DNA of 64,000 bases, from the NCBI RefSeq assembly GCF_014874095.1, contig NZ_JADBEB010000001.1, positions 6,324,001 through 6,388,000 on the forward strand. The letters are read 5' to 3'. How positions within the stretch are numbered: the first letter of the stretch is position 1; each line of letters opens with the position of its first letter. Below are positions 7,434 to 47,500 of the stretch, piece by piece. A model generated the notes under the pieces. The model searched no databases and had not been told where the DNA came from. It saw only the letters and a list, made by a program, of their open reading frames with translations. The stretch is from Plantactinospora soyae. Lineage in GTDB: Bacteria; Actinomycetota; Actinomycetes; Mycobacteriales; Micromonosporaceae. Position numbers and translations under genes: made by a program.

Positions 7434-7583
7434 CCGAGCATCGAGCCTGTCCTGGGTGACATAGCGAAGGTGCTACAAGTCTCGATCGCCGAGTTGAATG
7501 CGCCGCTAGTTCCGCCGATTACGGCTGGCTTGTCGGCCACAATCCTCGGCGAACGAGGCGATCAAGGTAGTCGAGCAGCCTGA
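7434..7583 (+). pseudogene. C-terminal relic of an XRE/HTH regulator
   Basis: The frame reads PSIEPVLGDIAKVLQVSIAE and then LNAPLVPPITAGL, which fits the end of an XRE-type helix-turn-helix domain (the usual pattern is PSxxTLxxIAxALxVSxxEL). No start codon or N-terminal helices precede it in frame: the frame upstream overlaps the small membrane protein gene and is not HTH-like. Interpreted as the 3' remnant of a regulator gene lost by deletion. Confidence 0.4.
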
Positions 7584-23213: not shown

Positions 23214-23215
23214 GG

Positions 23216-24193: not shown

Positions 24194-24846
24194 CGGTCCG
24201 CCCCGTCCCGCCGGGCCGTCCGGACCGCGGCCACGATGTTGTCGTACGCCCCACAGCGGCAGATGTTGCCCGACATGTTCTCGCGGATCTCGTCGTCGGA
24301 GTGGATGTGCCCCTCCTCGACCAGCGCCACCGCCGACATGATCTGGCCGGAGGTGCAGAATCCACACTGGAACGCGTCGCAGTCGATGAACGCCTGCTGC
24401 ATCGGATGCAGCCGGTCGCCGTCGGCCAGTCCCTCGACCGTGGTGACCTGCCGGCCGGCGGTGGCCACGGCCAGGGTCAGGCAGGACAGCACCCGGCGGC
24501 CGTCGACGTGCACGGTGCAGGCCCCACACTGGCCACGGTCGCAGCCCTTCTTCGACCCGGTCAGCGCCAGTCGCTCGCGCAGCGCGTCCAGCAGGGTCAC
24601 CCGGGGATCGATCCGGAGCCGCTCGGTGTCGCCGTTCACCACCAATCGGACCTCGACCAGTGAAGTTCCGACCGCCTCCGGTGCGGGCGCCGCCATTGCC
24701 GGTTCGGCGCCGACCGTCGGGCCGGCGGTCGCACCGACGGCCAGCCCGGCCGACGCGGCGGCGGTCCCGCGCAGGACACCACGCCGGGACAGCCCGGGTG
24801 GTGGAAGCACGGTCGGGGGCGAGTCCGGTTCGGACTCACGGGTCAT
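24190..24846 (-). CDS. 2Fe-2S subunit of aldehyde oxidoreductase, Tat-exported (PaoA-like)
   Basis: 218 residues. The twin-arginine signal is LSRRGVLRGTAAASAGLAVG (about residues 19-38), so the folded complex is exported. The plant-type 2Fe-2S domain follows (KKGCDRGQCGACTVHVDGRR, LSCLTLA), then the all-helical 2Fe-2S domain (CDAFQCGFCTSGQIMSAVAL and NICRCGAYDNI). Only this subunit carries a signal, the hitch-hiker arrangement known for PaoABC. First gene of the operon; its promoter lies in the 188-bp gap towards 25035. Confidence 0.94.
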   Translation of the reverse strand: MTRESEPDSPPTVLPPPGLSRRGVLRGTAAASAGLAVGATAGPTVGAEPAMAAPAPEAVGTSLVEVRLVVNGDTERLRIDPRVTLLDALRERLALTGSKKGCDRGQCGACTVHVDGRRVLSCLTLAVATAGRQVTTVEGLADGDRLHPMQQAFIDCDAFQCGFCTSGQIMSAVALVEEGHIHSDDEIRENMSGNICRCGAYDNIVAAVRTARRDGADR

Positions 24847-31806: not shown

Positions 31807-32913
31807 ATGACTGACCAGCTGACCAGCGACGAGCCCTGCGGCGCGCTCGAACTGGTCTGCGCCTTCACCGGGGCCATGCCGACCGGGGTCGGCGTCTCCC
31901 GGCGCGGTCGGATCTTCGTGACCTTCCCGAAGTGGGGCGACGAGGTCGGCGCCACCGTCGTCGAGCTGCGCGACGGCACCTGCCAGCCCTATCCCGACCA
32001 GGCCTGGAACGACCCGAGCGGAAACGACGACGCCGAGTCGTTCGTCTCGGTGCAGAGCGTGGTCGTCGACCCGTCGGACCGGCTCTGGGTGGTGGACACC
32101 GGCAGCCCGATGCTCCAGCCGACCCGCCCCGGCGGACCGAAGCTCGTCTGCGTCGACCTCGACACCGACCGGGTCACCCAGACCATCCTGTTCCCCGCCG
32201 AGGTGGCGCTGCCGACGTCGTACCTCAACGACGTCCGGTTCGACCTGCGTCGGCGCTCGGCCGGGGTCGCGTTCGTCACCGACTCGACCAACTCGGGACC
32301 GAACGGGATCATCGTGGTGGACCTGGCCAGCGGTACGTCCTGGCGACGCCTGCACGACCATCCGTCCACCAAGGCCGAGTCCCTGGTCGACTTCCGGCCA
32401 CTCGTCGAAGGGCGCCCCTTCCTGATGCGGCCGCCCGACGCCCCGCCCAGCCCGGTCAGCTTCGGCTCGGACGGCATCGCGATCTCGGCAGACGGCAGCC
32501 GCCTCTACTACTGCCCGTTGATGTCCCGCCGGCTCTACAGCGTCGACATCGACGCGCTCGTCGACCGGTCGATGGACGACGCCGAGGTGGCCGCCACGGT
32601 CTGTGACGAGGGGGACAAGGGCAGCGGCGCCGATGGTCTGGAGACCGACGACGCCGGCCGGATCTACGTCACCGCGTACGAGCAGAACGCCATCCTGCGC
32701 CGGAACCCGGACGGGGCGTACGAGACGGTGGTCCGCGATCCACGGCTGCTCTGGCCGGACACCATGTCGATCGGCGCCGACCGGTACCTCTACGTCACGG
32801 CGAACCAACTCCACCGCCAGCCGGACTACTCCGGCGGGATCGACCGACGGCGCCGCCCGTACGCCCTCTTCCGGTTCGCCATCGACGCCGGCCCGGTTTC
32901 ACTCGTGCCCTGA
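31807..32913 (+). CDS. Yellow/MRJP-like (SMP-30-type) beta-propeller protein
   Basis: 368 residues from ATG 31807 behind GGAGGGG. Beta-propeller with the yellow/major royal jelly family pattern: PTGVGVSRRGRIFVTFPKWG, VQSVVVDPSDRLWVVDTGSP, LPTSYLNDVRFDLRRRSAGV, AFVTDSTNSGPNGIIVVDLA and GADGLETDDAGRIYVTAYEQ. No signal peptide. Bacterial members are of uncertain function (lactonase- or tautomerase-like). It is 279 bp upstream of the acyl carrier protein operon in the same direction; joint function is possible but not shown. Confidence 0.85.
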   Translation: MTDQLTSDEPCGALELVCAFTGAMPTGVGVSRRGRIFVTFPKWGDEVGATVVELRDGTCQPYPDQAWNDPSGNDDAESFVSVQSVVVDPSDRLWVVDTGSPMLQPTRPGGPKLVCVDLDTDRVTQTILFPAEVALPTSYLNDVRFDLRRRSAGVAFVTDSTNSGPNGIIVVDLASGTSWRRLHDHPSTKAESLVDFRPLVEGRPFLMRPPDAPPSPVSFGSDGIAISADGSRLYYCPLMSRRLYSVDIDALVDRSMDDAEVAATVCDEGDKGSGADGLETDDAGRIYVTAYEQNAILRRNPDGAYETVVRDPRLLWPDTMSIGADRYLYVTANQLHRQPDYSGGIDRRRRPYALFRFAIDAGPVSLVP

Positions 32914-33192
32914 CGTCGCTGAGATCAATTGAACCGAATCATTAGCGCCAATATCAACATCAGAACAGGTCATCGTCTGACACCGGCTGATCGTTCGGCG
33001 GCGATATCGGTTTCTTGGCACTGAATCAACCTGATCGGGCTGCGGTAACGACCTATTCGGTCGGCGCGATCGAGCTCTTTGGTCGCATCTTGAACGATTC
33101 CCGCCTCGTTTCCTTCCTGGAAAACTTCACTGGGAGCCCACCCGCAACTTCCACGGAAACGTGGCGCGCGGGGATCGGGAGAGGAGCCGGAC

Positions 33193-33453
33193 TTGGCACA
33201 GACGGAGGCGGTGTCGGCCGCAGGGCTGCGCGACCTGGCGGCCGAGATTTTCGAGGTCAGCCCGGACGAGGTCACCGATGCGGCGGCGTTCTACGAGGAC
33301 CTCGGGATCGACTCGGTGCAGAAGGTCGAATTCGTGGTCCGGATCGAGCGGCAGCTGGGCGTACGGCTGACGAACGAGGAGGCGGCGGGACTCCAGGACT
33401 TCGGTGACGCTCTCGCCGTACTCCGGGATCGGGGTATCTCCATTGAGCCGTGA
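33193..33453 (+). CDS. Acyl carrier protein
   Basis: 86 residues from TTG 33193, set by GAGGAG 6 bases upstream. The phosphopantetheine site is Ser41 in EDLGIDSVQKVEFVVRIERQ, with the usual acidic first half. First gene of a four-gene operon in which every stop overlaps the next start. The DSVQ site (instead of DSL) and the downstream KS pair suggest a dedicated secondary-metabolism or specialised acyl carrier rather than the fatty-acid AcpP. Its promoter should lie in the AT-rich 279 bp upstream. Confidence 0.93.
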   Translation: MAQTEAVSAAGLRDLAAEIFEVSPDEVTDAAAFYEDLGIDSVQKVEFVVRIERQLGVRLTNEEAAGLQDFGDALAVLRDRGISIEP

Positions 33454-34672
33454 CCGGATCAGCGACCGGCGCCGAGCCGTGGCGATCTCGGGCGTCGGCG
33501 CGGTGTCCGGGGCCGGACTCGGCAGCGAGGCACTCTGGACGGCGGTGACCGACCGGCGGGTCCTGACCGGCCCGGTGACCCGGTTCGACATGTCCCGGTA
33601 CCCGGCGCGCTGCGGCGTCGAGGTGCCGTCCGCCGCCGTCGCCGCGCTCGACTCGGTGGTACCCGGGCACGAATCCCTCGCCGCCCGCTACCTCGCGGCC
33701 GCCGCGCTGGAGGGACTCCGGCACGCCGGCCTGCCGGCGCACGGACCCAAGCAGCGGCTGGGCGCGTTCGTCGGCACGGTGATGGCCACCCGGCCGATCC
33801 TGGACCGGGGCATCGGGCCGGGCCGGCTCGCCGTTCCCGGGCTCGGGTGGGCCCGGCCCGACGGTGTGCTGGACACGCTGCGGGAGACGGTCCAGGTCAC
33901 CGGACCGACGGTGCTGCTCGCACCCGGCTGCGCCGCCGGGAACAGCGCGATCGCCGCCGGCTGCCGGGCGATCGCCGCCGGTGAGGTCGACGTGGCCGTC
34001 TGCGGCGGGGTCTCCGAACTGTCCCTGGAGATCCTCGCGATGTTCACCTCGCTGCGGGCCCTCGCGGTGGACATGGTCCGGCCGTTCGACGTCAACCGCC
34101 GGGGCACCATTCCGGGGGAGGGGGCCGGGGTGCTGGTGCTGGAGCCGGCCGACCGGGTCGTGGCCCGGGGGCGACGCCCGTTGGCCCGGGTGCTGGCCTG
34201 TGCAGCCGCCGCCGACGCGCACAATCCGACCCAGCCGCATCCGGACGGCAACGGTCTGGTGTCGACGGTGCACGGCTGCCTGGACCAGGCCGGACTGACC
34301 GCCGACGACGTCGACTGGGTCTGCGCGCACGGTACCGGCACGCCGGCCAGCGACGGGATCGAGGCGCGGGCGGTGGCGAAGGCGTTGGCCGGGCGGCGCC
34401 GACCGGTGGTCTCGTCCCTCAAGGGACAGTTCGGGCACGCCGAGGGCGCCGCGGCTGCCCTGGAGGCGGTGGTCGCGGTCCGGGCCCTCGCGGAGGACTT
34501 CGTGCCGGGCAACGTGACGCTGATCGAGCCGGATCCCGTGTGCGGGGGCATCGATCTGGTCGAGCCCGCGGGCCGCCGGACACCGGTGCGGTCCGTGCTC
34601 AGCCAGGCCTTCGGATTCGGTGGCGGCGTGTCGACCATACTGCTGGGAAAGGGCGAGAGTGCTGCCGGTTAG
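33443..34672 (+). CDS. Beta-ketoacyl synthase (KS-alpha, FabF-like)
   Basis: About 409 residues from TTG 33443, which overlaps the carrier-protein stop by 11 bp; GTG 33404 is the alternative. KAS II fold with intact triad: Cys163 in LAPGCAAGNSAIAAG, His296 in WVCAHGTGTPASDG and His332 in LKGQFGHAEGAAAA. It therefore can do decarboxylative Claisen condensation on the adjacent carrier protein. The start of the next gene overlaps its stop, matching the KS/chain-length-factor gene pairs of type II PKS. Substrate unknown. Confidence 0.9.
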   Translation: MSRDRISDRRRAVAISGVGAVSGAGLGSEALWTAVTDRRVLTGPVTRFDMSRYPARCGVEVPSAAVAALDSVVPGHESLAARYLAAAALEGLRHAGLPAHGPKQRLGAFVGTVMATRPILDRGIGPGRLAVPGLGWARPDGVLDTLRETVQVTGPTVLLAPGCAAGNSAIAAGCRAIAAGEVDVAVCGGVSELSLEILAMFTSLRALAVDMVRPFDVNRRGTIPGEGAGVLVLEPADRVVARGRRPLARVLACAAAADAHNPTQPHPDGNGLVSTVHGCLDQAGLTADDVDWVCAHGTGTPASDGIEARAVAKALAGRRRPVVSSLKGQFGHAEGAAAALEAVVAVRALAEDFVPGNVTLIEPDPVCGGIDLVEPAGRRTPVRSVLSQAFGFGGGVSTILLGKGESAAG

Positions 34673-35861
34673 CGAGTGTCTGTCCGTTCGTGGCCTGGGG
34701 CTCCGGCTGCCGGGCATGACCGGGCCGGAAGACCTGGCCCGCCTGGTCGGCGGGGCGTCGGTGGCACCGTCGGAGGTACGGCGGTTCGAGGCCCCGTACA
34801 CCGATCTGGATCCGGTGGACCGGCTGGCCGCCGGTCCGGTCGAACCCCGGATGCCCCCGGGCGTCGCCGTCCGAGGGCTGCGGGCGGTGCCCCGCGAATC
34901 GCTGCTCGCGCTCGCCGCGGCGGTCACGGCGGAGGACGCCGCCTCGACGATCGGCACGCCGGTGACCGGTGCGCCGGTGACCGGGGTCGGCACACCGTCG
35001 GTCGGCGCGGCGTCGGTCGGCACACCGCCGGGCGGTACGCCGGTCTTCGCCGCCGATGTCGGTCCGGTCGCAGTGCTCTGGGCCAGTTCGAGTGCCGGGC
35101 TGGCCGAGTACGCCACCATCTGCGTCGAGGCCGCCGTGCTGGACCCGGGCCTGAGCAGCCCGATCATCGGTCCCGCGTCGGCGTTCAACGGACCGGCGGC
35201 GACGGTGTCCATCCGGCTCGGACTTGACGGACCGAACGAGACGGTCACCGGCGGTACGACGGCCGGGCTGACCGCCCTGATCGAGGCGGGTCGGTTCGTG
35301 GCCGACGGCGCGGCGACGCGGGCCCTGGTCGGCGCCTCGGCGACGGTGAGCCGGTGGAGCCTGGCCGGCCTGGCCGAGAACTTCGTCGCGGCCGAGGGCG
35401 CCGGATGTCTCGCGGTCCAGCCGTGGCGCGACGGCGACCCTGGCGTCCGCCTCGGGCGGTTCCGCCGGGTGGGCCTGGACCGGTCCCGGCTGGCGGCCGA
35501 ATGCCACGACCTGGTCCGCACCGCGCTGCTCACCGGCGGTGTCCGGGACGGAGCGCCCGGCGCCGGAGCGACGGCCGACGGGGGAGGCGGCGGCCTGGCA
35601 CCGTTGATCGTCTCAGCGCTCGACGTCGACCTGGTCGACGCGCTGACCCAGGAGTACCCCGGGCCGGTGTGGCACCTGGAACGGTCGCTCGGCGACTTCG
35701 GTGCGGCCGGCGGCTTCATGGCGGTGGCCTGTGCCGTCGCGTACTGCGCCAGCGTTCCGGCGCCGACGAGCATGCTCGCGCTGGCGATCGAACCGTCCGG
35801 AAACACCGCCATCATGGAGGTCTTCACATGGGAAGCGCCAACCTCGTCGAGCGGCTGGTAG
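34659..35861 (+). CDS. Ketosynthase-like partner lacking catalytic residues (CLF-like)
   Basis: About 400 residues from GTG 34659 (GGGCGAGA upstream, 14-bp overlap with the KS gene). The thiolase-type fold is recognisable: SSPIIGPASAFNGPAATVSI, the nucleophile-elbow region DGPNETVTGGTTAGLTALIE and the end SLGDFGAAGGFMAVACAVAY. At the Cys position the sequence has Gly-Thr-Thr, the first His motif (HGTGT) is missing and the second His is Asp. It lacks the Gln that marks classical chain-length factors. Residues about 97-128 are a Gly/Thr/Pro/Val repeat insertion. Likely a structural partner of the KS. Confidence 0.8.
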   Translation: MLPVSECLSVRGLGLRLPGMTGPEDLARLVGGASVAPSEVRRFEAPYTDLDPVDRLAAGPVEPRMPPGVAVRGLRAVPRESLLALAAAVTAEDAASTIGTPVTGAPVTGVGTPSVGAASVGTPPGGTPVFAADVGPVAVLWASSSAGLAEYATICVEAAVLDPGLSSPIIGPASAFNGPAATVSIRLGLDGPNETVTGGTTAGLTALIEAGRFVADGAATRALVGASATVSRWSLAGLAENFVAAEGAGCLAVQPWRDGDPGVRLGRFRRVGLDRSRLAAECHDLVRTALLTGGVRDGAPGAGATADGGGGGLAPLIVSALDVDLVDALTQEYPGPVWHLERSLGDFGAAGGFMAVACAVAYCASVPAPTSMLALAIEPSGNTAIMEVFTWEAPTSSSGW

Positions 35862-38110
35862 GGCGGCAACTCGCGCTCGGCCGGGGTGAGCGGGTCGCCT
35901 ACCTGGACCCGGACGGGCAACTCAGCTACGCGGAGTTGTACCGCGCGGTGCGCTGGTACGCGGCGCGGCTGGCCGGAGCCGGGATCCGACCCGGAGTCCG
36001 TGGGTTGATCGTCGCCGACGACGCCATTCCGACCGTGGTCGCGATCCTGGCACTGTGGTGGCGGGGCGCGGTCGCGGTTCCGGTGAGCCCGATGCTGACC
36101 GAGGCGGAGCTGGCGTTCATCGCCGAGGACTGTCAGGCCGGCTTCCTGCACGCCGACGAGCGCGGCGGCGAGCTGGCCACCCGGGCCGGCCTCGCCGGGC
36201 TGCCCCGGGGCGACGCGGGTTGGTCGGAGCACGGCAGTCCGCCGGCGCCGCCGCCGGTCAACCAGGACCCGTCCGAGGTGCTGCTGATCCAGTACACCTC
36301 GGGCAGTACCGGCAAGCCGAAGGGCGTGCTGCACAACGGATCCGGAGTGGAGGCCGTACTCGCGGGCTTCGGCCGGGTCCTCGACCTCCGGCCCGAGGAC
36401 ACCGTGCTCTCCACCGCCAAACTTCCCTTCGGGTACGGCTTCGGCAACTCGCTGCTCTTCCCGCTCGCCACCGGGGCGGCGGTGATCCTCAACCAGGGTC
36501 CGCCGGACGTCTACCGGCTCGCCGCGACGATCGCCCGGCACCGGCCGACCGTGCTCTGCGCGGTGCCCCGGATCTACGCCGCGCTGCTCGACCGGGCCCG
36601 CGCCGCGACGACTCCGACGGCCGCCGCGACTCCGACGGCCGCCGGGACTTCGACGACAGCCGGGACTTCGACGGCCGCCGCGAGCCCGACGGTGGGGCAG
36701 GCGGACGGGGCCGGCCCGCCCGACCTTCGCTCCGTGCGGCTCGCCGTATCGGCCGGCGAGCACCTGCCCGGGGCGCTCTGCGACGGGTTCACCCGAACCT
36801 TCGGGGTGCCACTGGTCAACGGCCTCGGCGCGACCGAGGTGCTGCACATCGTGGTCGCCACCCGGGGCAGCCGACCCGGGTCGACCGGGACCGCCGTGCC
36901 CGGCATGACGGTCAGCGTCCGGGACGACGCCGGTCACCCGCTGCCGGTCGGATCGGAGGGGCGGCTGCACGTGGCGGGCCCGTCCGTCGCCGCCGGCTAT
37001 CTGGACCGTCCCGAGTCGCAGGCCCGTACCTTCGCCGACGGCGGGGCGTACACCGGTGACATCGTCGCGCAGCAGCCGGACGGCGAACTCCGGTACCTGT
37101 GTCGGCACGACGACCTGATCAACATCGGCGGGTACAAGGTGTCACCCCTCGACGTGGAGGCGGCGGTGCGGGACCTGGCCGGGCTGGCCCAGTGTGTGGT
37201 GGTCGGGTCACGGGACCAGAACGGACTGGAGCAGGCGGTCGCCTACCTGGTACCGGCACCCGGGGCCGATCCGGTTCCGCTGCGCCAGAGCGCCCGGGCC
37301 GCCTTCCGGGCCGGGCTGCCACCGTTCAAGCGCCCCGCCGTCGTCGAGGTCGTCGAGCACCTGCCGACCACCTCCACCGGCAAGCTCGCCCGGTACAAGC
37401 TCCGGGCGGCGGGTACGGCGCCGGCGGTGGTCCGGATGCGGGTACTACGCGACGGTCCGGGACGGACCCTGGTCTGCATCCCGTACGCGGGCGGCTCGTC
37501 CGGGGCGTTCACCCGGTTGGCCCGGCACCTGCCCGGCTCCTGGCGGGTGGTGGCGGGCGAGGCGACGTACCGGGACGGCGTCACCATCGCCGACGCGGCC
37601 CGTGCCTGGTGGCAGGCGGGTACGCCGTACCTGTCCGACGGGGCGGTCCTGTTCGGACACAGCCTGGGCGCCGTGCTTGCCGCCGCGGTCGCCGACGCGG
37701 CCGGGGAGGGGCTGGCCGGTACGCAGGTCGTACTCTCCGCCCCGCCGCTGCTGCCCGGAGCGGAGCGCCCGGCGCTGGTCTCCGACGACGACGAGACGCT
37801 GCTGGCCGGGTTGCGCAGCACCGGGCTGCTGCCGACCAGCGGGCTGACCTCGGAGGAGATCATCCGGCTGCTGCTGCCCCGGTTCCGTCGGGACATCGCG
37901 CTCGCGCCGAACGGGTTCGAGGGCGTACGGACCCGGGCGGTGCACGTGCTGCTCGGTACCGACGACGGACTCTGTACCCGGGAGGCGCTGGCCGCCCGGA
38001 TCCCCGTCGACCGGATAGCCAGCCTGCACCTGATCACCGGCGACCACTACTTCGTCACCACCAATCCGGTGCAGACCGCCGAAGTGCTGGCCGGGATGTT
38101 CCAGGACTGA
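35828..38110 (+). CDS. Acyl-CoA/ACP ligase fused to type II thioesterase
   Basis: 760 residues from ATG 35828, preceded by GGAGGT. Residues 1-530 form an ANL adenylating enzyme of benzoate-CoA-ligase type: IQYTSGSTGKPKG (156-166), LPFGYGFGNSLLFPLATG, NGLGATE (331-337), YTGD (408-411) and the catalytic Lys519 in TSTGKL. A 30-residue Thr/Ala repeat linker (260-290) interrupts the domain. Residues 545-760 are a TEII alpha/beta hydrolase: GHSLG with Ser612, Asp712/713 and His740. Activates a carboxylic acid and loads it on CoA or on the operon's carrier protein, while the fused thioesterase releases product or edits mis-loaded carrier. A single-polypeptide fusion of the two is unusual. Confidence 0.9.
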   Translation: MGSANLVERLVGRQLALGRGERVAYLDPDGQLSYAELYRAVRWYAARLAGAGIRPGVRGLIVADDAIPTVVAILALWWRGAVAVPVSPMLTEAELAFIAEDCQAGFLHADERGGELATRAGLAGLPRGDAGWSEHGSPPAPPPVNQDPSEVLLIQYTSGSTGKPKGVLHNGSGVEAVLAGFGRVLDLRPEDTVLSTAKLPFGYGFGNSLLFPLATGAAVILNQGPPDVYRLAATIARHRPTVLCAVPRIYAALLDRARAATTPTAAATPTAAGTSTTAGTSTAAASPTVGQADGAGPPDLRSVRLAVSAGEHLPGALCDGFTRTFGVPLVNGLGATEVLHIVVATRGSRPGSTGTAVPGMTVSVRDDAGHPLPVGSEGRLHVAGPSVAAGYLDRPESQARTFADGGAYTGDIVAQQPDGELRYLCRHDDLINIGGYKVSPLDVEAAVRDLAGLAQCVVVGSRDQNGLEQAVAYLVPAPGADPVPLRQSARAAFRAGLPPFKRPAVVEVVEHLPTTSTGKLARYKLRAAGTAPAVVRMRVLRDGPGRTLVCIPYAGGSSGAFTRLARHLPGSWRVVAGEATYRDGVTIADAARAWWQAGTPYLSDGAVLFGHSLGAVLAAAVADAAGEGLAGTQVVLSAPPLLPGAERPALVSDDDETLLAGLRSTGLLPTSGLTSEEIIRLLLPRFRRDIALAPNGFEGVRTRAVHVLLGTDDGLCTREALAARIPVDRIASLHLITGDHYFVTTNPVQTAEVLAGMFQD
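36611..36682. repeat. Four in-frame 18-bp repeats in the ligase linker
   Basis: Units start at 36611, 36629, 36647 and 36665 (ACTCCGACGGCCGCCGCG and variants), with a degenerate fifth. Each encodes a six-residue Thr-Pro/Ser-Thr-Ala-Ala-Gly/Ala block within the ANL domain of the ligase. Copy number is likely to vary between strains. Confidence 0.8.
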
Positions 38111-38535: not shown

Positions 38536-39399
38536 TCAGTCGACGTCCTCCCGGACCCGGGCGACCAGTTGGGTCGGATTGACGAACCGCAACGCGATCA
38601 CCAGGAGCACCAGCATCATGGCGGTGTACATGACCGCCATCGCGTCGATGGACTGTTGGGCCCGGATACCGGCCGCCGACATCGAGTAGTACAGCGCCAC
38701 GACCAGGGTCTGCGAATCCGGCCCGGCCGTGAGGAAGGTCAACTCGAACATCCCGACCGTACGCACCAGGACCAGGATCGAGGCGGCCAGGATCCCCGGG
38801 GTCAACAGGGGGGCGAGGATCCGGACGAAGATCTGCCGGGTACCGGCCCCACACATCCGGGCCGCCCGCTCCACCGCCGGGTCGATTTGCTCGATGAACG
38901 GCGTCATGGTGAGGATCACGAACGGCACCGAGGGCACCAGGTTCGCCAGCACCACCCCGGACAGGTGGCCGGCGAAGCCGTACTTGTAGAGCACCGTCGC
39001 CAGCGGAATGCCGTAGGTGATCGGCGGCATCAGGATCGGAAGCAGGAACAGCAGGTAGAGCAGCCGCCGGCCGGGGAACGAGCGACGGGCCAGCACGTAC
39101 GCCGCCGGCACCCCGACCAGCACCGAGATGCCGACCACCAGCAGCGACACCTCCAGGGTCACCACCAGCACCTGGAACAGGCCGAACTCCTGCCAGGACT
39201 GGCCGTACCACTTCGTGGTGAACTCCTGCGGGAACCAGGTGTCGAACCAGCGGTTGCCGAAGGAGCTGACCAGCACCGAACCGATCACGCCGGCCAGGTT
39301 GACGAAGAAGAACGCCACCACGCCCCAGATCAGCCAGGCGGCCGGCCTGGCGACCAGACGTCGACGGCGGCGCGCCAGAGTCGTTCCGGACGACGTCAT
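38536..39399 (-). CDS. ABC transporter permease (second)
   Basis: 287 residues, six predicted helices. BPD-type permease with the EAA loop around MTPFIEQIDPAVERAARMCG and AGTRQIFVRILAPLLTPGIL. The start overlaps the first permease's stop (ATGA). Belongs to the PotC/PhnV/ferric-iron-thiamine class of importer permeases. Last gene of the four-gene transporter operon (binding protein, ATPase, two permeases). Confidence 0.92.
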   Translation of the reverse strand: MTSSGTTLARRRRRLVARPAAWLIWGVVAFFFVNLAGVIGSVLVSSFGNRWFDTWFPQEFTTKWYGQSWQEFGLFQVLVVTLEVSLLVVGISVLVGVPAAYVLARRSFPGRRLLYLLFLLPILMPPITYGIPLATVLYKYGFAGHLSGVVLANLVPSVPFVILTMTPFIEQIDPAVERAARMCGAGTRQIFVRILAPLLTPGILAASILVLVRTVGMFELTFLTAGPDSQTLVVALYYSMSAAGIRAQQSIDAMAVMYTAMMLVLLVIALRFVNPTQLVARVREDVD

Positions 39400-40343
39400 C
39401 AGCCCTTTCCTCCCGCCGTCGCACCGGTGTAGAGCAGCGCCCGCCAGCCGAGTACGGCGGCGATCACCAGCAGTTCGACCAGCCCCATCAACACCGCGAT
39501 GGTGGCCGCCATCGGATAGTCGTACTGCACGTACGCCGCGTCGTACGCCGCGATCGAGATGACCCGGGTCGTACCGGCCGGGTCACCGACCAGGATGGCC
39601 GACGGGAAGACGCTGAACGCCAACACGAAGGTCAGGCAGAACGTGGTGGCGAGCCCGGGCGCCAGCAGCGGCAGCGTGATCCGGCGGAACCGCTGCCACC
39701 AGTTCGCCCCGAGGGTGGCGGCGGCCCGCTCCAACGTCGGGTCGATCCCCGACAGGTACGACAGCACCAGCAGGAACGCGAACGGGAAGCCGGTGATGAC
39801 GATGGAGAAGAACACGCCCCAGTAGTTGTTGGTGAGCCGGATCGGATCATCGGTCAGGCCGACGGCCAGCAGGGTCCGGTTGAACCAGCCGGTCGGGCCG
39901 AGGAAGTTGAGCAGCCCCTGTGCGGTCAGCACGGTGCCGAGGGTGATCGGCACCACCAGCACCGTGGTGAGCAGCCGCTTGCCCCGGAACCGGCCGCGCA
40001 TCCGGTAGGCGATCGGCACCGAGGCCGCGACGTTGAGCAGGGCCGCCGGCAGCGACAGCTTCAGGGTCGTCCAGATGGTGTCCCGGAGGTACGCGTCGGA
40101 GAAGAACTCCTGGTACGCGGCGAACGGGCCGCCCTCGGCCGGCTGGAACGACAGCCCGACGCCGTACCCGAACGGGTAGATGAAGAGCACCAGGATGAAG
40201 ACCGCGGCCGGGACCAGCAGCAGGAGTTGCCGGTCGATGCCCCGCTCGGCCAGCCGGTGCCGGAGCGCCACCCGCGTCCCGACCCGCGACCGGCCGTCCG
40301 GTGCAGGGTCGTCGGTGCGTGGTGGCGTCGCCGTGGCGCTCAC
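39399..40343 (-). CDS. ABC transporter permease (first)
   Basis: 314 residues with a basic cytoplasmic N-terminus (RVGTRVALRHRLAERGIDRQ) and six helices. The EAA loop is visible as LSGIDPTLERAAATLGANWW followed by QRFRRITLPLLAPGLATT. Overlaps both neighbours by 1-4 bp. Membrane channel half of the importer with the permease encoded at 38536-39399. Confidence 0.92.
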   Translation of the reverse strand: MSATATPPRTDDPAPDGRSRVGTRVALRHRLAERGIDRQLLLLVPAAVFILVLFIYPFGYGVGLSFQPAEGGPFAAYQEFFSDAYLRDTIWTTLKLSLPAALLNVAASVPIAYRMRGRFRGKRLLTTVLVVPITLGTVLTAQGLLNFLGPTGWFNRTLLAVGLTDDPIRLTNNYWGVFFSIVITGFPFAFLLVLSYLSGIDPTLERAAATLGANWWQRFRRITLPLLAPGLATTFCLTFVLAFSVFPSAILVGDPAGTTRVISIAAYDAAYVQYDYPMAATIAVLMGLVELLVIAAVLGWRALLYTGATAGGKG

Positions 40344-41464
40344 CGGGCACCCTCGACGGCCGGTCCCGGAGACACCGTGTCGACGGGCTCGTCCAGCAGG
40401 CCGGCGTCGGCCTCGTCCGTCGGAAAGACCAGCAGTCGTACGGGATCCACCGCGATCCCGATCCGGTCACCGAGGGTCGGACGCACCTCGGTACGCAGGT
40501 TGAACTGCACCCCCTCGGCGGTGCGGGCCTCGACCGCCACCTCGCGGCCCTGGTACTCGACCACCTCGACGACGGCCGGTACGCCCTCCTCCGGACCGGT
40601 GATCCGCAGGTCCTCGGGGCGGACTCCGGCGACCACCTCGGCCCCGGCGGACACCGGCCCGACCGGGGTGCCGACCAGCCGCAGCCCGTGACCGGTCACC
40701 ACCACCTCCGAGCCGGTACGCTCGTCCGCCCGCAACCGCAGCAGGTTGCGGTATCCCATGAAGTCGGCGACGTGCCAGTTCACCGGCCGGGTGTGCAACT
40801 CCTCCGGGGTGCCGATCTGCTGCACCCGGCCGGCGCGGAGCACCACCAGCCGATCCGCCAGAGACAGCGCCTCCTCCTGGTCGTGCGTGACGTACACCGT
40901 GGTCAGCCCCAGCGACTGGTGCAGCCGCCGGATCTCGGTACGCATCTCCAGCCGCAACTTTGCGTCTAGATTGGACAGCGGCTCGTCCATCAGTACGAGC
41001 GAGGGTTCCAGCACCACCGCGCGGGCGATGGCGACCCGCTGCTGCTGCCCGCCGGAGAGCTGTCCGGGCAGCTTGGTCGCGTGTTCCTCCAGCCGGACCA
41101 GCCGGATGGCCTCCTCGGTCCGGCGCCGGACCTCGGCCCGGGGCAGCCGACGCATCTGCAACCCGAAGGCGATGTTGCGACGTACCGACATGTGCGGGAA
41201 GAGCGCGTAGTTCTGGAAGACCATCCCGAAACCGCGTCGTTCCGCCGGCACCGTGTCGAGCCGGGTGTCGTCGGACCAGATGCTGCCCCGGGTCAGTGGG
41301 AGCAGGCCGGCCAGGCAGTTCAACGCGGTGGACTTACCGCAGCCCGACGGTCCGAGCAGGGCGATGAACTCCCCGCTGCGGACCGTCAGGTCGAGGTCGG
41401 TCAGCGCGTCGTGGCCGGCGAAGCTCCGCGTCACACCGTCCAGCCGCAGTTGCGCGAACTTCAC
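40340..41464 (-). CDS. ABC transporter ATP-binding protein (PotA/PhnT-like)
   Basis: 374 residues. Walker A LLGPSGCGKSTALNCLAG, Q-loop FQNYALFPHMSVRRNIAFGL, signature LSGGQQQRVAIARA, Walker B LVLMDEPLSNLDAK, H-loop VTHDQEEALSLADR, and a C-terminal TOBE-like domain (about 245-350). This layout is shared by spermidine, thiamine, iron and 2-aminoethylphosphonate importers, so the substrate cannot be set from sequence. Start 58 bp after the binding-protein stop; overlaps the first permease. Confidence 0.93.
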   Translation of the reverse strand: MKFAQLRLDGVTRSFAGHDALTDLDLTVRSGEFIALLGPSGCGKSTALNCLAGLLPLTRGSIWSDDTRLDTVPAERRGFGMVFQNYALFPHMSVRRNIAFGLQMRRLPRAEVRRRTEEAIRLVRLEEHATKLPGQLSGGQQQRVAIARAVVLEPSLVLMDEPLSNLDAKLRLEMRTEIRRLHQSLGLTTVYVTHDQEEALSLADRLVVLRAGRVQQIGTPEELHTRPVNWHVADFMGYRNLLRLRADERTGSEVVVTGHGLRLVGTPVGPVSAGAEVVAGVRPEDLRITGPEEGVPAVVEVVEYQGREVAVEARTAEGVQFNLRTEVRPTLGDRIGIAVDPVRLLVFPTDEADAGLLDEPVDTVSPGPAVEGAR

Positions 41465-41522
41465 TTGTTCCTGTCCTCTGTTCGTGACTGCGGGGCTCGC
41501 AAACCCGGCTCACTCCTCGCCC

Positions 41523-42734
41523 TCACTTGCTCACCTTTGCGCCGCCGATCTCGCGGTCCCATTTGCTGAACGCCTCGACCAGCGCCTTGGCGTCGAGCGG
41601 CACCTCGAGGGGGTTGTTGGCGATGAGTTGCTCGTACTCGGGCCGGCCGAACTGCTCGATCGCCTTGCGGCTGGCCTCCGGCGCCATCGACAGCGGCACG
41701 TCCTTGATCGCCGGCCCGGGGTAGAAGTAGCCCTGGTCGTACGCCTTGGCCTGCTGCTCGGGGGTCAGCATGTGGTTCAGCAGGGCCAGGATGGCGGCCT
41801 GCTTGTCCGTCGACACTCCCTTGGGGACGACCGCGTAGTGCGCGTCGGTGACCCAGTGGAAGCCCTCCAGCGTGCCGACCTTCGCCTCCTCCGGCACGGT
41901 GCCGAGCACCCGTGGGTTGATGTCCCAGCCGGTGGTGCTGACGATGATCTTCGCGGATCCGTTGGCCAGGTTCTTCATCGTCTCGCCGGTACCGGACGGG
42001 TAGAGGGTGACGTACTTGTTCAGTTCGGCGAGGTACGCCCAGGTCTTGGCCCAGCCGTTCACCGGGTCCTTCGGGTCCGTGTCGCCCAGCAGGTACGGCA
42101 GGCCCATCAGGAAGGTCCGGCCCGGTCCGGAGTTGGACGGCCGGGCGTACTGCACCGCACCCGGGTTGGCCTTGGCGTAGTCGAGCAGCGCCTGGGCACT
42201 GGTCGGCGGGTTCGGCACCTTCGCCGGCAGGTACTCGATCAGCGGCCCGGACGGGTAGTAGGTGACCGTCACGCCGTGGTCGCGGGCCAGCTTCTGCATC
42301 GCCGCCGCGCCGGGCAGGTAGTTCGCCATCCCGGACAGCCGGTCGGCATGGGTGGGCAGCAGCGGCGTCCACAGGTTCTGCTCGATGCCGGCCGCCAGCC
42401 CGTCCACACCGGTCAGCACCAGGTCGATCTCGACCCGGTTGGCGTCCTGCTGGGCCTTGACCTTGCCGACCAGCTCCGGCGAGGGCGACTTCGAGTACGT
42501 CACCTTCGACACCGTGTCCGAGTTCTTCGAGACGAAGTCGTCGATCATCGTCTGGGTGAGTTGCAGGTTGCCCGCGACGTCGAGAATGTTCAGCACGACC
42601 GGTGAACCGGGCTTGTCGGGGACCGCGCCTCCGCTCGGCCCGGGTTGCGCGGCCTCGGGCGCACCGCAGGCGGCGACCAGGCTCAGCGCGGTCAGGGCCG
42701 TGGCGGCGAACAGTCGGCGTTGGCTTCGACGCAT
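41523..42734 (-). CDS. ABC transporter solute-binding lipoprotein (family 1)
   Basis: 403 residues. Lipoprotein signal with lipobox LSLVAACGAP (Cys23). The mature part has the type II periplasmic-binding fold: VVLNILDVAGNLQLTQTMID, GVTVTYYPSGPLIEYLPAKV, FHWVTDAHYAVVPKGVSTDK. Captures substrate outside the membrane for the ATPase and permeases encoded downstream. Its neighbours on the far side (GH115 gene) hint at a carbohydrate, but the ATPase type fits small cationic or phosphonate solutes equally. Substrate open. Confidence 0.9.
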   Translation of the reverse strand: MRRSQRRLFAATALTALSLVAACGAPEAAQPGPSGGAVPDKPGSPVVLNILDVAGNLQLTQTMIDDFVSKNSDTVSKVTYSKSPSPELVGKVKAQQDANRVEIDLVLTGVDGLAAGIEQNLWTPLLPTHADRLSGMANYLPGAAAMQKLARDHGVTVTYYPSGPLIEYLPAKVPNPPTSAQALLDYAKANPGAVQYARPSNSGPGRTFLMGLPYLLGDTDPKDPVNGWAKTWAYLAELNKYVTLYPSGTGETMKNLANGSAKIIVSTTGWDINPRVLGTVPEEAKVGTLEGFHWVTDAHYAVVPKGVSTDKQAAILALLNHMLTPEQQAKAYDQGYFYPGPAIKDVPLSMAPEASRKAIEQFGRPEYEQLIANNPLEVPLDAKALVEAFSKWDREIGGAKVSK

Positions 42735-42846
42735 GGCATTCCCCTCTCTCTATGCTGCTACATGATGTCTCTCTATGCGGTGGCGGTCCGCGCCGGCCCC
42801 CGGGAAGGGCTGACGCGGACCGCCACCGGTTGGAGGATGTCGGGGA

Positions 42847-45800
42847 TCAGTGACCGATCCTGGTGCTCTCCGGTGGCCCCAGATAGCTCGGTCGCAGTCC
42901 GCCGGTGTCGACGACGAGCTGCTGCACCACCACTGTCGGGTCGACCATCCAGAACTTGAGCGTGTGTACGCCCGGCCGGTCGACGGTGTGCAGAGTGGTC
43001 GTGACGTTGACGTTGTCGGAGGTGTTCCGCTCCCACTGCCGGTTCATCGTCGTGTCGTTCGCGCCGGTGCTGGTGGTGGCGTTGACGATCTGTGGAGCCC
43101 CGCCGTCGATCGAGACCGCGTACCGGAGTCCCTCGGTCGGCAGCACGTTGTTCCGGGGGGACAGGTACGCCGACACCTTCACCGGACCGGGCGTGGTCAG
43201 GGTCATCTCGTACTCCAGGCGCGGGGTGTTGCCGCCCGGCGTACGGCTGGCGGCGGTGACCGGGAACGGCGTCAGGCCGTCACCGGTCCGGCCGAGGTCG
43301 GGGATCCGCTTCCAGTACACCCCGCCGGTGTTCACCGCCCGGGTGTAGTGCGCGGCCGGAATCGAGACGTAGCCGTTCGCCTCGACGTGCCCCTTCGGGC
43401 GCAGCCCCTGCGGGTTATCAACCTTTGCCTGCACCACGACGCTGGCGCCGTCCGGGCCGGTGACCGTGATGGGCACCGTGGTGCTGCCCTTCGGGGCGCG
43501 CCGCCAGTCGACCCGGACCTCGATCCGGACCTGGTCGTCGACCCGGCCGCCGCGCCGGTCGAGCTTCAGCCAGGGCGCGTCGGCGCGGACCGTGTAGTCG
43601 AACGGGACGCTGCCCCGGTTGAACACCTCGAGGTACTGCCCCGGCTGGCTCTGGTACGGGCTGAACGTCGGCAGCACCGCCGGCCCGGTCTCGGCCGGCC
43701 ACCACCTGTCGGAGCCGTCGATCGCGACACCCAGTTCGGCCGTTGCCGGCACCTCGATCCGCTTCAGGTGCGGGTAGAAGGCGTCGGGCAGCGCCTGGTA
43801 GTTCAGTTCCGGCTGCTGCCAGGGCGCGTTCGGGCCGTACCGGGCGATGTCGCCGTACCCGATCTTGGGTTGGGTCTGGAAGCCGCGCCACTTCCCGCCG
43901 GCCAGGGTGTTGTTGTAGTAGTCGGACATCGCCTGGTCCTCGGCGAACCGCTCCTCGGCCTCCTCGGCCACGGCGTTGGTGGCGGCCCGGCCCTGGGCGG
44001 CGTAGAGCAGGTTGGTGAACTGCGCCTCCCGCAGGGCGTAGAGGTTCGCCGTCGCCGCCACCTGGTAGTGGACGAGCTGGTAGTAGGCGTCGTCGTAGCC
44101 GTCCGGAAGCCGGCCGCGGACCTGTTCGGCCCGCGCGGCGAGCTGCCGCCACTCCTGTACGACCCGGCGCGTCTCCTGGTAGTCGGTCAGGCTGTACGGG
44201 CTGGTGTCGGTGTAGACCACCGCCGAGGAGTCGGTCGCCGGGTCCTTGGCCGGGTCGAGGGTGATCCTCCGGTTCAGTAGTTCCGGCTTGCGCCGGGCCT
44301 GGAGCTGGCCGTACTCGTGCAGGATCTCGCCGATCTCCCCGGCGTACCGGTCGGGGAAGTTCTGCGCCGCGTACGCCTGCTGCCATTCGTCGAGCTTCTC
44401 GATCGGGATGCTTCCCGGATCCCAGGCGTAGTCGAGGAAGAGCTGGAGCGGCAGCTCCTCGTTCTTCATGTCACCGACGTTGACCACCCAGAGCTTGTCG
44501 ACGCCGTACGTGTACGTCAGGTTCAACTGCTCCCAGGTGCTGGCCAGGTTGATCGTGTCGACCCACTTGTAGTTCCGGCCGCCACCGACGTAGTCGAAGT
44601 GGTAGTACATCCCGTACCCGCCGCCGCGGGCCGGCAGGCTCTGGTCCGGCAGCTTCCGCATGTTGCCCCAGTTGTCGTCACAGAACACCACCGTGACGTC
44701 GTCCGGCGGGCGCATGCCCCGGTCCCAGTAGCGCTGGACCTCCTTGTAGAGGGTGAAGACCTGCGGGATGTCCGGCAGTTCACGGTCGCTGACCTCGTCG
44801 AGGATCTGGCGCTGGCTGGCGATGATGCTCTCCATCAGCTCGATGCCGTCCCCGTCGGGCAGGCTGACGTCGCCGTTGCCGCGCATGCCGAGGGTGACCA
44901 CGCCCTCGAAGTCCTGCTCCTCCATCCGTTCGATGCCGTCCCGCCAGTACCCCTTGAGCGCATCGGAGTTACGCCGGAAGCTCCACTCACCGGTGCCGCC
45001 GTACGGGTCGGTGCCGCCTCTGGCGTGCCGGTTCCACTCCTCGATGCCCCGCATCATCGGCGCCTCGTGCGAGGTGCCCATCACCACGCCGTACTCCTTG
45101 GCGGTGGCATGGTTGGCCGGGTCGTCCTCGGCGAACGCCCGGCCCCAGACCGCCGGCCAGAGGTAGTTGGCCTTCAGCCGCAGCATGGTCTCGAAGACCT
45201 TGGCGAAGAAGTGCCGGTTGAAGCCGCCCTCGAAGCCCGGCGCGAGGCCGGGGCCGAAGAAGTTCGGTGCCCAGGTGCCCAGGGCCGGGTTCTCGTCGTT
45301 GATGAAGAAGCCGCGGTACTGCACCGCGGGCGTGCCCTGGGTGTGCCGGCCGGGCAGGACGTGCAGCGCGTCGCTGGACCGGGCCGGGACGTCGTCCCAC
45401 CAGTACCAGGGGGAGACGCCCGCCTGTTTGGACACCTCGTACGTCCCGAAGATGGTGCCCCGCTGGTCGCTGCCGGCGATCACGAGGGCGCGACGGACGC
45501 CGGGCAGCGGGTTCTGGACGATCTGTTGCAGCGAGGTCTCCCACTTGCCGGCGATCCCAGTGACGTTGAGCTTGCGACTGGCGACGAGTTGGTCGATCAG
45601 CGGGCTCTTGCCGATGGTGCCGACGAGCACGACCTCGCCCTGCCGGGGCACCCGGTCCACCGAGACCGTGGGGCGTACCTCGGTGACCCGCTCGATGTCG
45701 GCCTGCAGGTCGCTCACCACCCGGACCACGCCGGGGTGGTCGCTGGCGCTCACCACCAGCGTCGCGGCCCGGCCGCGCTCGACAAGCGGCAGGCTGCCCG

Positions 45801-45993
45801 GCTTGGACCGGGTCGAGATGAAGCCGGCGGGATCGGACCTGTCGTCGGGTCCGGAGGCCCCGGCCGAGGACGCGGCCAGGGCGGGCGCCGCCGTGACGGC
45901 GACGGTCAGGGAGAGCAGGGCCCGGCAGAGTTTCGCGCCGGTGGGTCTGCTGCGGAGGAAAGCCGGCAGGCCGGCAGGGGTGGACCTTCTCAT
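42847..45993 (-). CDS. GH115 xylan alpha-glucuronidase, secreted
   Basis: 1048 residues from ATG 45993 (MRRSTPAGLPAFLRSRPTGA) with GGAG upstream; the longer frame start is not needed. Signal peptide about 20-48. GH115 domains: N-terminal GlcNAc-binding-like region (VGTIGKSPLIDQLVASRKLN), catalytic barrel (QYRGFFINDENPALGTWAPN, RLKANYLWPAVWGRAFAEDD, GTSHEAPMMRGIEEWNRHA, VTVVFCDDNWGNMRKLPDQS) and the C-terminal GH115 beta domain (YVSIPAAHYTR). Removes 4-O-methylglucuronic acid side chains from xylan, complementing the xylose kinase gene elsewhere in the window. 111 bp upstream of the ABC importer operon, same strand. Confidence 0.94.
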   Translation of the reverse strand: MRRSTPAGLPAFLRSRPTGAKLCRALLSLTVAVTAAPALAASSAGASGPDDRSDPAGFISTRSKPGSLPLVERGRAATLVVSASDHPGVVRVVSDLQADIERVTEVRPTVSVDRVPRQGEVVLVGTIGKSPLIDQLVASRKLNVTGIAGKWETSLQQIVQNPLPGVRRALVIAGSDQRGTIFGTYEVSKQAGVSPWYWWDDVPARSSDALHVLPGRHTQGTPAVQYRGFFINDENPALGTWAPNFFGPGLAPGFEGGFNRHFFAKVFETMLRLKANYLWPAVWGRAFAEDDPANHATAKEYGVVMGTSHEAPMMRGIEEWNRHARGGTDPYGGTGEWSFRRNSDALKGYWRDGIERMEEQDFEGVVTLGMRGNGDVSLPDGDGIELMESIIASQRQILDEVSDRELPDIPQVFTLYKEVQRYWDRGMRPPDDVTVVFCDDNWGNMRKLPDQSLPARGGGYGMYYHFDYVGGGRNYKWVDTINLASTWEQLNLTYTYGVDKLWVVNVGDMKNEELPLQLFLDYAWDPGSIPIEKLDEWQQAYAAQNFPDRYAGEIGEILHEYGQLQARRKPELLNRRITLDPAKDPATDSSAVVYTDTSPYSLTDYQETRRVVQEWRQLAARAEQVRGRLPDGYDDAYYQLVHYQVAATANLYALREAQFTNLLYAAQGRAATNAVAEEAEERFAEDQAMSDYYNNTLAGGKWRGFQTQPKIGYGDIARYGPNAPWQQPELNYQALPDAFYPHLKRIEVPATAELGVAIDGSDRWWPAETGPAVLPTFSPYQSQPGQYLEVFNRGSVPFDYTVRADAPWLKLDRRGGRVDDQVRIEVRVDWRRAPKGSTTVPITVTGPDGASVVVQAKVDNPQGLRPKGHVEANGYVSIPAAHYTRAVNTGGVYWKRIPDLGRTGDGLTPFPVTAASRTPGGNTPRLEYEMTLTTPGPVKVSAYLSPRNNVLPTEGLRYAVSIDGGAPQIVNATTSTGANDTTMNRQWERNTSDNVNVTTTLHTVDRPGVHTLKFWMVDPTVVVQQLVVDTGGLRPSYLGPPESTRIGH

Positions 45994-46249
45994 CTCGCGC
46001 TCCGGGCCTAGGAGGAGGTGGGGGAAGGTGCGCGGTGCGAAACTTCTCGGAAGTGTTCCGGAAAGGAAATCTAAGCGCATCCCTAGTGAAGGTCAAGGCG
46101 GTCGTCGATACGCAGCGCGCCCGGAGCGGTACGGAATACGACGAGCCGACGGCTGTCCCTGACCAGCGAATTCCGCTCAGCCCGTGGTTGCCTTGGTCAT
46201 CCAATCTACGGGCGGTGAAACATTTTGGACCCGTCTCCGGAAATTTTCA

Positions 46250-47065
46250 TCAGCGTTCTGGGTTGCTGCGATTCCCGCCCGGCCATAGGTCACCGAGGAA
46301 CTGGTATTCGACCCGGGTCAGTCCTTCCGAGAGCTCCCACAGCCGGCGACCGATCTCCGGGTCGGTGGCGGTGCTCGGCAGCCGTACCGGTCCGGGTGCG
46401 CCACGCCCCTCGCCCCGCCCGGTCGGCCCGATGAACTCTCCGCCGGTGAGACCGGGGTGGGTGGCGGCGTACAGCGACGGCAGCGCCGCCCGGTCGGTGC
46501 TCTGGAACAGGATCGGTCGGAGTAGCAGGTTGATCGCCGCCAGCGCGCGCGGGACCTCGCGGGTGAGGTTGGTCTGGCTGACTCCCGGATGTGCCGCCAC
46601 GGCGACGAGGCCGGTGTCCCCGCCGCGCCGGGCCAGTTCCTGGGTGAAGACGACGTTGGCGAACTTCGACATCGCATAGGCGCGCATCGGTCGGTACGTC
46701 TGCTCGCTGGCCACGTCCACCAGTTCGCCCGACCGCCAGCGCGAGGCGATCGCGCTCACCGTCACCACCCGGGCGGCCTTTGCCCGAAGCAGGGCCGGCA
46801 GCAGCCGTCCGGTCAGCGCGAAGTGCCCGAGGTGGTTGGTGCCGAAGGTGAGTTCGAAGCCGTCCGCGGTGGTGCGCCGCTCCGGGATGGCCATCACCCC
46901 GGCGTTGTTGATCAGCAGGTCGAGCGGGCGGTCGGCGGTCAGTACGCCGTCCGCCGCCGCGTTGATCGATTCGAGGTCGGCCAGGTCGAGTCGCCGGGTT
47001 TCGATGACGGCATCCGGCGACTCGGCCTGGATCGCCGAGGCGGCGTCGGTCAGCCGCGCCAGGTC
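46250..47065 (-). pseudogene. 5'-truncated SDR oxidoreductase
   Basis: About 272 codons of a short-chain dehydrogenase remain, including [40 protein letters not shown] and the catalytic Tyr/Lys in [20 protein letters not shown]. The N-terminal Rossmann beta-strand and the TGxxxGIG nucleotide motif (about 35-40 residues) are missing: similarity stops at [17 protein letters not shown], where the DNA turns into the 5'-truncated TetR gene on the other strand. The open frame continuing upstream is TetR antisense. Without the NAD(P) motif the product should be inactive. Confidence 0.75.
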
Positions 47066-47500
47066 TACACCTACTTCGGCGGCAAGGACGACCTCTTCGA
47101 CGCGGTCTTCGACGCCATCGTCGAGCAGGCACTCGCGGAGACCCCGATCACTCCCGAGGACCTGGCCGGTTATGCCGGACGGCTCTTCGACGCCATGGAG
47201 GCCTACCCGGACGTCGCCCGGATCGCCACCTGGTACCGGCTCGAACGGACCGGGTCCGGGCGGACCATCCCGGCCATCACGGCGGCCAGCAAGGCCAAGG
47301 CGGACGCGATCCGGATCGCCCAACGGGCCGGCACGGTCTCGGGCCGGTTCGACGCCGAGCAACTGCTCGCCCTGGTGCTCACCCTCGCGTCGATGTGGTC
47401 GTCCCTGTCGATCGAGGCCGTCGAACTGGCCGCCGCCGCCGACCCGGACCGGCGTCGCGCCACCGTCACCGCCGCCGTCCGCCGTCTCGTCGAGCCCTGA
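47057..47500 (+). pseudogene. 5'-truncated TetR regulator
   Basis: Starts abruptly at [20 protein letters not shown], the end of the TetR recognition helix, and continues through a complete ligand domain ([40 protein letters not shown]). The first ~40-45 residues of the DNA-binding domain are missing; upstream in frame is antisense of the SDR gene. Cannot bind DNA as a normal TetR. Shares its junction (47057-47065) with the truncated SDR gene. Confidence 0.75.

Follow-up and report, generated by a model that had tools for sequence, protein, structure and literature searches.

A conserved four-gene operon of Plantactinospora soyae that probably encodes an aryl-primed, minimal polyketide synthase of type II

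Four overlapping genes in the 9.7-Mb genome of Plantactinospora soyae (assembly GCF_014874095.1) probably constitute a complete minimal type II polyketide synthase (PKS), which would start from an aromatic acid, with anthranilate the likeliest candidate, would extend this starter by one or two malonyl units and would release the chain through a thioesterase. They lie on the forward strand at 33193-38110 of the window, that is, the whole 64,000-nucleotide stretch analysed here (contig NZ_JADBEB010000001.1, positions 6,324,001 to 6,388,000), and encode an acyl carrier protein (ACP), a ketosynthase (KS), a KS-like partner and a ligase joined to a thioesterase. A preliminary description of the same DNA had recognised these parts and proposed that they form a candidate undescribed acyl-extension system.

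All four frames are present as that description reported them, with successive overlaps of 11, 14 and 34 bases, and each catalytic residue it named was found; the start codons given below are our own choice. The 86-residue ACP (33193-33453, + strand, TTG start) matches PP-binding with 43.1 bits, against a cut-off of 20.8, and carries Ser41 in a DSV motif. The 409-residue KS, of the FabF/KS-CLF kind (33443-34672, + strand, TTG start), contains both PF00109 and PF02801 domains and has Lys327 in addition to the expected Cys163, His296 and His332. Its 400-residue partner, similar to a chain-length factor (CLF; 34659-35861, + strand, GTG start), matches PF00109 with 33.8 bits (cut-off 20.8) and is devoid of the catalytic cysteine and histidines. 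The last gene (35828-38110, + strand, ATG start) encodes a single protein of 760 residues, the first part of which (residues 1 to approximately 534; 35828-37429) is an aryl/acyl-adenylating ligase domain with AMP-binding (229.6 bits) and AMP-binding_C (46 bits) matches and Lys519, and the remainder (residues approximately 535 to 760; 37430-38110) a thioesterase domain (PF00975, 60.4 bits against a cut-off of 26.4) with Ser612 and His740. Pfam's curated cut-offs were exceeded for PP-binding, for the N and C domains of ketoacyl-synt in the KS and the N domain only in the partner, for AMP-binding and its C domain, and for Thioesterase. A discrete ACP, a KS with a Cys-His-His set and a KS-like partner without the cysteine together make up a minimal type II PKS. 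Among the neighbouring genes scanned (20985-48926), no ketoreductase, cyclase or acyltransferase gene adjoins the operon, in agreement with the preliminary description, nor was a prenyltransferase or oxygenase gene recognised beside it; the closest short-chain dehydrogenase lies 8 kb away on the opposite strand (46250-47362).

The KS residues Cys163, His296, Lys327 and His332 are invariant in all 14 aligned rows. The best NCBIfam match of the enzyme is FabF, and because the score of 222 bits falls below the cut-off of 494 it is best regarded as a divergent FabF-like enzyme; by profile, its nearest solved relatives are 9s5h_B and then the ishigamide KS, 6kxd_A. In the partner, Thr200 stands at the position of the cysteine and Asp346 at that of the last histidine, so that its lack of catalytic residues is borne out. 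Across 13 rows, the window included and one locus (L046; L and G numbers are our labels for loci and genomes) not aligned, T, S, P, A or V is found at residue 200, and D throughout at position 346. A predicted model of the partner, built with 13 rows (pTM 0.74, mean pLDDT 67), has a KS-type fold, and Foldseek placed ishigamide KS/CLF B chains at ranks 1, 2 and 4, with 6kxd_B the best and a human mitochondrial KS at rank 3; the matches to the ishigamide chains have E 5e-12 to 3e-11, TM by query 0.56-0.58 and a root-mean-square deviation (rmsd) of 8.6-9.0 A. The model should be taken as informative for fold class only. An indirect pointer to a heterodimer of KS and partner is found in Streptomyces coacervatus, where both share one 725-residue frame (locus L116, 7870-10044).

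The ligase reads as one of the benzoate/anthranilate type. Its best NCBIfam match is benz_CoA_lig (TIGR02262), with 300 bits, short of the 375 required for membership of that family, and its nearest solved relatives are benzoate-CoA ligases, followed in a profile search by a gramicidin synthase and then by the anthranilate ligase 4wv3. The motifs FGYGFG (201-206) and GATEVLH (334-340) are of the aryl-CoA-ligase type, and the clade has Gly202 where the benzoate ligases compared, which read FAYGLG, have alanine; two plasmid loci beside pabB genes also carry alanine in this motif. Around the pocket of the anthranilate ligase PqsA of Pseudomonas lie Phe209, Gly210, Tyr211, Gly214, Gly302, Ala303, Thr304, Glu305 and His308, as given in an excerpt of PMC7593710, and we judged F201, G202, Y203, G206, G334, A335, T336, E337 and H340 of the window's ligase to be their equivalents. 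In a ligase tree, the 13 rows from four-gene loci (two identical) cluster together (SH-aLRT 98), next to a large group of actinobacterial ligases; this tree was made by a quick method from 88 rows (two identical), with one locus (L118) excluded for length, several long branches and some four-gene genomes omitted.

The four genes were found to travel together. KS matches of at least 65% identity occur in 14 of 300 genomes of the family, the present one included, and in three of 44 genera, with the others at no more than 44% among the matches listed. The cassette is present in all seven genomes of the Plantactinospora-type genus, in all six of a second genus, the members of which include Phytohabitans maris, P. 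suffuscus, P. flavus and Micromonospora sp. CPCC 205371, and in the one genome of a third; close relatives of the ligase include those of Plantactinospora alkalitolerans, Plantactinospora endophytica and Plantactinospora mayteni. The order ACP, KS, partner, ligase-thioesterase is kept in the stretches from all 13 relatives, which with our own makes 14 genomes; one ACP (L051), absent from the gene calls, was recovered by tblastn. Within the genus, the upstream neighbour, a gene for a major-royal-jelly-type protein, is common to all six relatives, and the downstream ABC transporter, which lies on the opposite strand, to four of the six, in places with intervening genes, while neither occurs in the six stretches from the second genus. 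As the four genes persist from genus to genus and their flanks do not, the cassette is a stand-alone unit, as had been supposed from the window.

It is also under purifying selection: ratios of non-synonymous to synonymous substitution (dN/dS, by NG86) among five genomes lie within 0.08-0.54 in all 40 pairwise comparisons (five genomes by four genes). The ACP shows 0.08-0.23, the KS 0.19-0.27, the partner 0.37-0.54 and the ligase-thioesterase 0.25-0.31. A chance or mis-called operon is ruled out by conservation in 14 genomes, and the possibility that it is a piece of some bigger cluster of this lineage by flanks that vary between genera around four constant genes. Two loci from the second genus have a disturbed reading frame in the thioesterase portion of the last gene (L048, 11653-13775; L049, 7563-9698), either a real change or an assembly fault. 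More widely, a class-wide sample of 394 genomes, with four candidates scored per genome, gave a match at E <= 1e-90 from our own genome only; in an order-wide sample of 397 genomes searched with a ligase profile, two candidates scored per genome, 56 genomes matched at E <= 1e-95, with our own at 1291 bits and no other match above 394 bits. A tblastn search of plasmids with the KS returned one record, from Photobacterium, at 35% identity. Judged from titles and the openings of abstracts, no description of the operon in Plantactinospora or Phytohabitans was recognised among the open-access papers listed.

A conserved non-coding leader, probably a promoter-operator region, precedes the ACP gene (33060-33192, + strand). 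Its mean column identity is 94% over the window and five other genomes of the genus, with the less similar L045 left out, and the second genus has no similar sequence here. It holds the inverted repeats TTCCtGGAA and CCACG-GAAA-CGTGG ahead of the ACP start, and a 20-base block, TCGTTTCCTTCCTGGAAAAC, of which the only exact copy in the genome is this one, with one other site at three mismatches. A conserved peptide is argued against by an indel, and an RNA structure gains no support from covariation, as none of 41 predicted pairs has changed on both sides; Rfam has no match in 32900-33260.

From these features we infer a scheme for starter, loading, number of rounds, thioesterase role and product. 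The ligase would adenylate an acid of the benzoic type, for which anthranilate (2-aminobenzoate) is the likeliest candidate, and load it onto the operon's own ACP, as suggested by the ligase family and by ACP-ligase fusions elsewhere. The KS and its dead partner, as a heterodimer, would then condense the aryl-ACP with one or two malonyl units, as intact KS residues and the joint frame of S. coacervatus imply; as the operon has no malonyltransferase, the malonyl-carrier would be supplied by that of fatty acid synthesis. The fused thioesterase may free the chain or else clear mis-primed carrier in an editing role, and its product would be a beta-keto acid or a quinolone, which in the absence of a ketoreductase should keep its keto groups. 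One round from anthranilate would give 2-aminobenzoylacetate, able to cyclise to 2,4-dihydroxyquinoline or to lose CO2 to form 2-aminoacetophenone; two rounds would give a compound of the 2-methyl-4-quinolone type.

Anthranilate is favoured as the starter because the ligase motif resembles the PqsA pocket and because anthranilate-synthase-like genes lie near relatives of the ligase; these two kinds of evidence, motif residues and the gene neighbourhoods of relatives, are those that bear on it. We classified 92 loci (five from plasmids, 80 listed as ligase relatives and seven further from plasmids) by identity to seeds from the window, L038 and L040. In 75 of them the ligase reaches 42% identity, and a KS was detected at the limits used in 69 of the 75, in 68 together with a KS-like partner. 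Streptomyces xiaopingdaonensis L115, with a KS of 44% identity, raises the number with a KS to 70 of 75; its ACP, KS, partner, ligase (44%) and a thioesterase encoded on its own stand in a row as a looser version of the cassette. The loci without a KS are L078, L102, L114, L117 and L139; excluding the eight four-gene loci, 62 of 67 related-ligase loci also hold a KS. The ligase clade would also mark many actinomycete KS/CLF clusters that take an aryl starter. Fusions tie the parts of the cassette together: ACP with ligase in four of five Streptomycetaceae plasmid rows, KS with KS-like sequence in L116, and KS-like sequence with thioesterase inside one annotated gene of S. halstedii L136.

Anthranilate-synthase-like genes (at least 45% identical to that of L040) occur in 13 of the 92 loci, L040 counted (L039, L040, L063, L066, L085, L095, L096, L103, L105, L106, L112, L114 and L116); a further 13 match this seed at just 29-33% and may hold other chorismate enzymes. 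Nine of the 13 loci at 45% or above also carry isochorismatase and DhbA-like genes, a kind of set described for a hydroxylated anthranilate in the excerpted account of PMC4425429. The other four, L063, L066, L105 and L116, have a DAHP synthase, and no gene of theirs reaches the 45% limit for isochorismatase. The gene of L116, which lies with a class II DAHP synthase, is a Chorismate_bind-GATase fusion with no NCBIfam match at E <= 1e-60, so that anthranilate synthase and ADIC synthase are not separable for it. Two of these loci, L063 and L116 (both Streptomyces), have the KS nearest to the window's found outside the three genera (57-60% identical), in clusters with a partner-like sequence, a ligase, two extra KS/CLF pairs and FabG-type reductases. 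The preliminary description had held that its proposal would fall if homologues always sat inside larger clusters; larger clusters do exist for these distant KS relatives, and the orthologues stand alone. In L039, L040, L095, L103 and L106, ligase, KS/CLF and FabI are joined with DAHP synthase, DhbA and isochorismatase and with anthranilate-synthase-like genes, and these clusters look like makers of 3-hydroxyanthranilate-primed, reduced products; no matching description was recognised among the open-access papers listed by a search aimed at them.

Several observations weigh against an anthranilate-primed minimal PKS. The anthranilate ligase 4wv3 ranks beneath benzoate ligases and a gramicidin synthase, the register between PqsA and the window's ligase was set by motif judgement rather than by a computed alignment, and PqsA has Gly307 before His308 where the window has Leu339, as do benzoate ligases. 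No anthranilate-synthase-like gene was detected in the stretches searched around any of the eight four-gene loci, even at 20% identity, so that anthranilate would need to come from tryptophan synthesis. Function transfer by way of the Streptomycetaceae is weakened in that their ligases reach 42-55% identity, but the adjoining KS of the five plasmid loci only about 26-34%. The partner lacks the glutamine which aromatic-polyketide CLFs, a subgroup of those in type II PKS, have at the cysteine position; its best solved sequence matches are ordinary ketosynthases (2c9h, 42.8 bits, against 26.7 for 6kxd_B), and the fold matches of its model superpose poorly (rmsd 8-9 A). Since Leu339 matches benzoate ligases, the fit is almost as good for benzoate, salicylate or some other small aryl acid, and a rather unlikely but serious alternative is that the same machinery takes such a starter and extends it once to an aroylacetate, which would decarboxylate to an acetophenone-type ketone. 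The benzoate-CoA ligase family and structures that head the searches, the pair Leu339-His340 and the lack of an anthranilate-synthase gene near the cassette all speak for this; Gly202, in place of the alanine of the benzoate ligases compared, and the anthranilate-synthase-like and DAHP-synthase genes in the two wider clusters with related KS (L063 and L116) speak against it.

Two further alternatives concern the KS pair. It could build a longer poly-beta-keto chain that cyclises spontaneously or through enzymes encoded elsewhere, for which there is precedent in the aurachin genes of Stigmatella, spread over three loci (PMC10295502, in excerpt), and some support in the 16 other ketoacyl-synt matches of the genome; we consider this improbable, as across genera no other biosynthetic gene accompanies the cassette and the KS profile is nearer to 6kxd_A and FabF-type enzymes (240 and 223 bits) than to the actinorhodin KS 1tqy_A (192 bits). 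Less credible still is that the pair acts as an acyltransferase or ester-former, attaching an aryl acid to an acceptor: the KS does match NCBIfam's 'acyltransferase subunit AmcF' of cispentacin (174 bits against a cut-off of 325), but the invariant Cys-His-His and Lys327 are the usual set for decarboxylative condensation and no acceptor-making gene was recognised nearby.

If the operon is an aryl-primed minimal PKS, four genes, on one 5-kb fragment, suffice to turn primary metabolites into an aryl polyketide. Its presence in seven of seven and six of six genomes, together with purifying selection and the conserved leader, suggests a role needed by the genus rather than an accessory antibiotic. 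We speculate, as a doubtful proposal, that in Plantactinospora and Phytohabitans it provides a diffusible product of simple structure, an aryl ketone or quinolone (2-aminobenzoylacetate, 2-aminoacetophenone, 2,4-dihydroxyquinoline or 2-methyl-4-quinolone) with a signalling or redox role and not that of a strain-specific antibiotic, and would so be an actinobacterial type II PKS counterpart of the Pseudomonas quinolone-signal branch.

The surroundings of the operon are ordinary: a molybdopterin dehydrogenase set of large, FAD and 2Fe-2S subunits at 20985-24846 and an ABC transporter accompanied by a GH115 glycosidase at 38536-46080. A 1278-residue open frame opposite the operon (33272-37108, minus strand) most likely just shadows the coding strand, as the genome has 70% G+C. 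Another transporter set (640-5098) sits 28 kb from the cassette; in L048 (G031), the cassette adjoins 70-91% relatives of this set (2925-7776), which may be coincidence. Elsewhere in the genome, a run of six KS-domain matches (C1:8667384-8676387, minus strand) is probably a separate multi-KS/CLF cluster, and KS matches of about 34% in G032, G058, G092 and G113 suggest that it may be common to them.

Among known systems, several share parts of this arrangement. The ishigamide KS/CLF (6kxd) is the second-nearest solved relative of the KS by profile and its B chain the best match of the partner model; that system yields a reduced polyene with the help of a ketoreductase and a dehydratase, both lacking here. 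Enterocin is made by an aromatic PKS of the classical, large kind, which comprises many more genes. Its benzoate-primed synthase offers a parallel in loading, as EncN places the acid directly on the ACP with no CoA intermediate, and an editing role has been reported for the thioesterases ZhuC and EncL (PMC12664062, excerpted). Similar in gene content are 19 Streptomycetaceae loci with the same four functions, ligase, KS, KS-like protein and thioesterase, all 19 devoid of a FabG-type reductase at a 50% identity limit; four others (L036, L086, L087 and L097) have KS, thioesterase and FabG together. The 19 loci differ from the cassette in that the ACP is fused to the ligase, the thioesterase is separate, the KS is distantly related and there are fixed neighbours. 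In one example, S. anulatus L038 (11737-16674), the ACP-ligase, KS, KS-like and thioesterase genes are accompanied by a uracil-DNA-glycosylase-like and a nucleoside-deoxyribosyltransferase-like gene. Loci of this sort, in most cases flanked by genes for a methyltransferase, a phosphotransferase and a NUDIX protein, are found on plasmids and genome-assembly contigs (L067, L069, L070, L071, L074, L080, L081, L089, L090, L109, L110 and L134-L137). The 19 loci do not sit well with the earlier argument that known loci are larger.

In Pseudomonas, 2-aminobenzoylacetyl-CoA cyclises to 2,4-dihydroxyquinoline, and PqsE frees 2-aminobenzoylacetate, which can lose CO2 to give 2-aminoacetophenone (PMC4807248, in excerpt). 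PqsA, PqsD and PqsE thus resemble the present system in having an aryl ligase, to which the motif residues add a likeness, one malonyl extension and a thioesterase giving a beta-keto acid. The condensing enzymes PqsD and PqsC, however, are of the FabH type, with PqsBC acting at a later step, whereas here a FabF-type KS is accompanied by a dead partner and a dedicated ACP.

The closest parallel is the synthesis of aurachin, in which, in the excerpt of PMC10295502, anthranilate is loaded on an ACP and extended by KS-alpha and KS-beta with two malonyl units, so that 4-hydroxy-2-methylquinoline is set free; in the Rhodococcus and Streptomyces aurachin systems one enzyme activates and loads, and Streptomyces sp. 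NA04227 has a putative thioesterase. The likeness was drawn from published gene content (AuaB/C/D with AuaE and AuaEII in Stigmatella, RauC/D/E/F in Rhodococcus, SauB/C/D/E with SauK in Streptomyces NA04227), the comparison being one of genes rather than of protein sequences such as RauC-F and SauB-E, which tempers it: both have an ACP, a KS, a KS-beta or KS-type second subunit and an acyl-adenylating loader, with no ketoreductase in the core as excerpted there. The operon differs in that ligase and thioesterase are one protein and that no prenyltransferase, oxygenase or isoprenoid genes stand beside it, a lack which is not decisive against an aurachin type because the Stigmatella genes are scattered. 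By gene content, then, the operon resembles, and may be taken to work like, the aurachin minimal PKS, a kind already known, and the preliminary case for an undescribed system, built on the larger size of known loci, gives way to a narrower one: relative to the aurachin core, the fused ligase-thioesterase, the freedom from tailoring genes and the genus-wide conservation are new.

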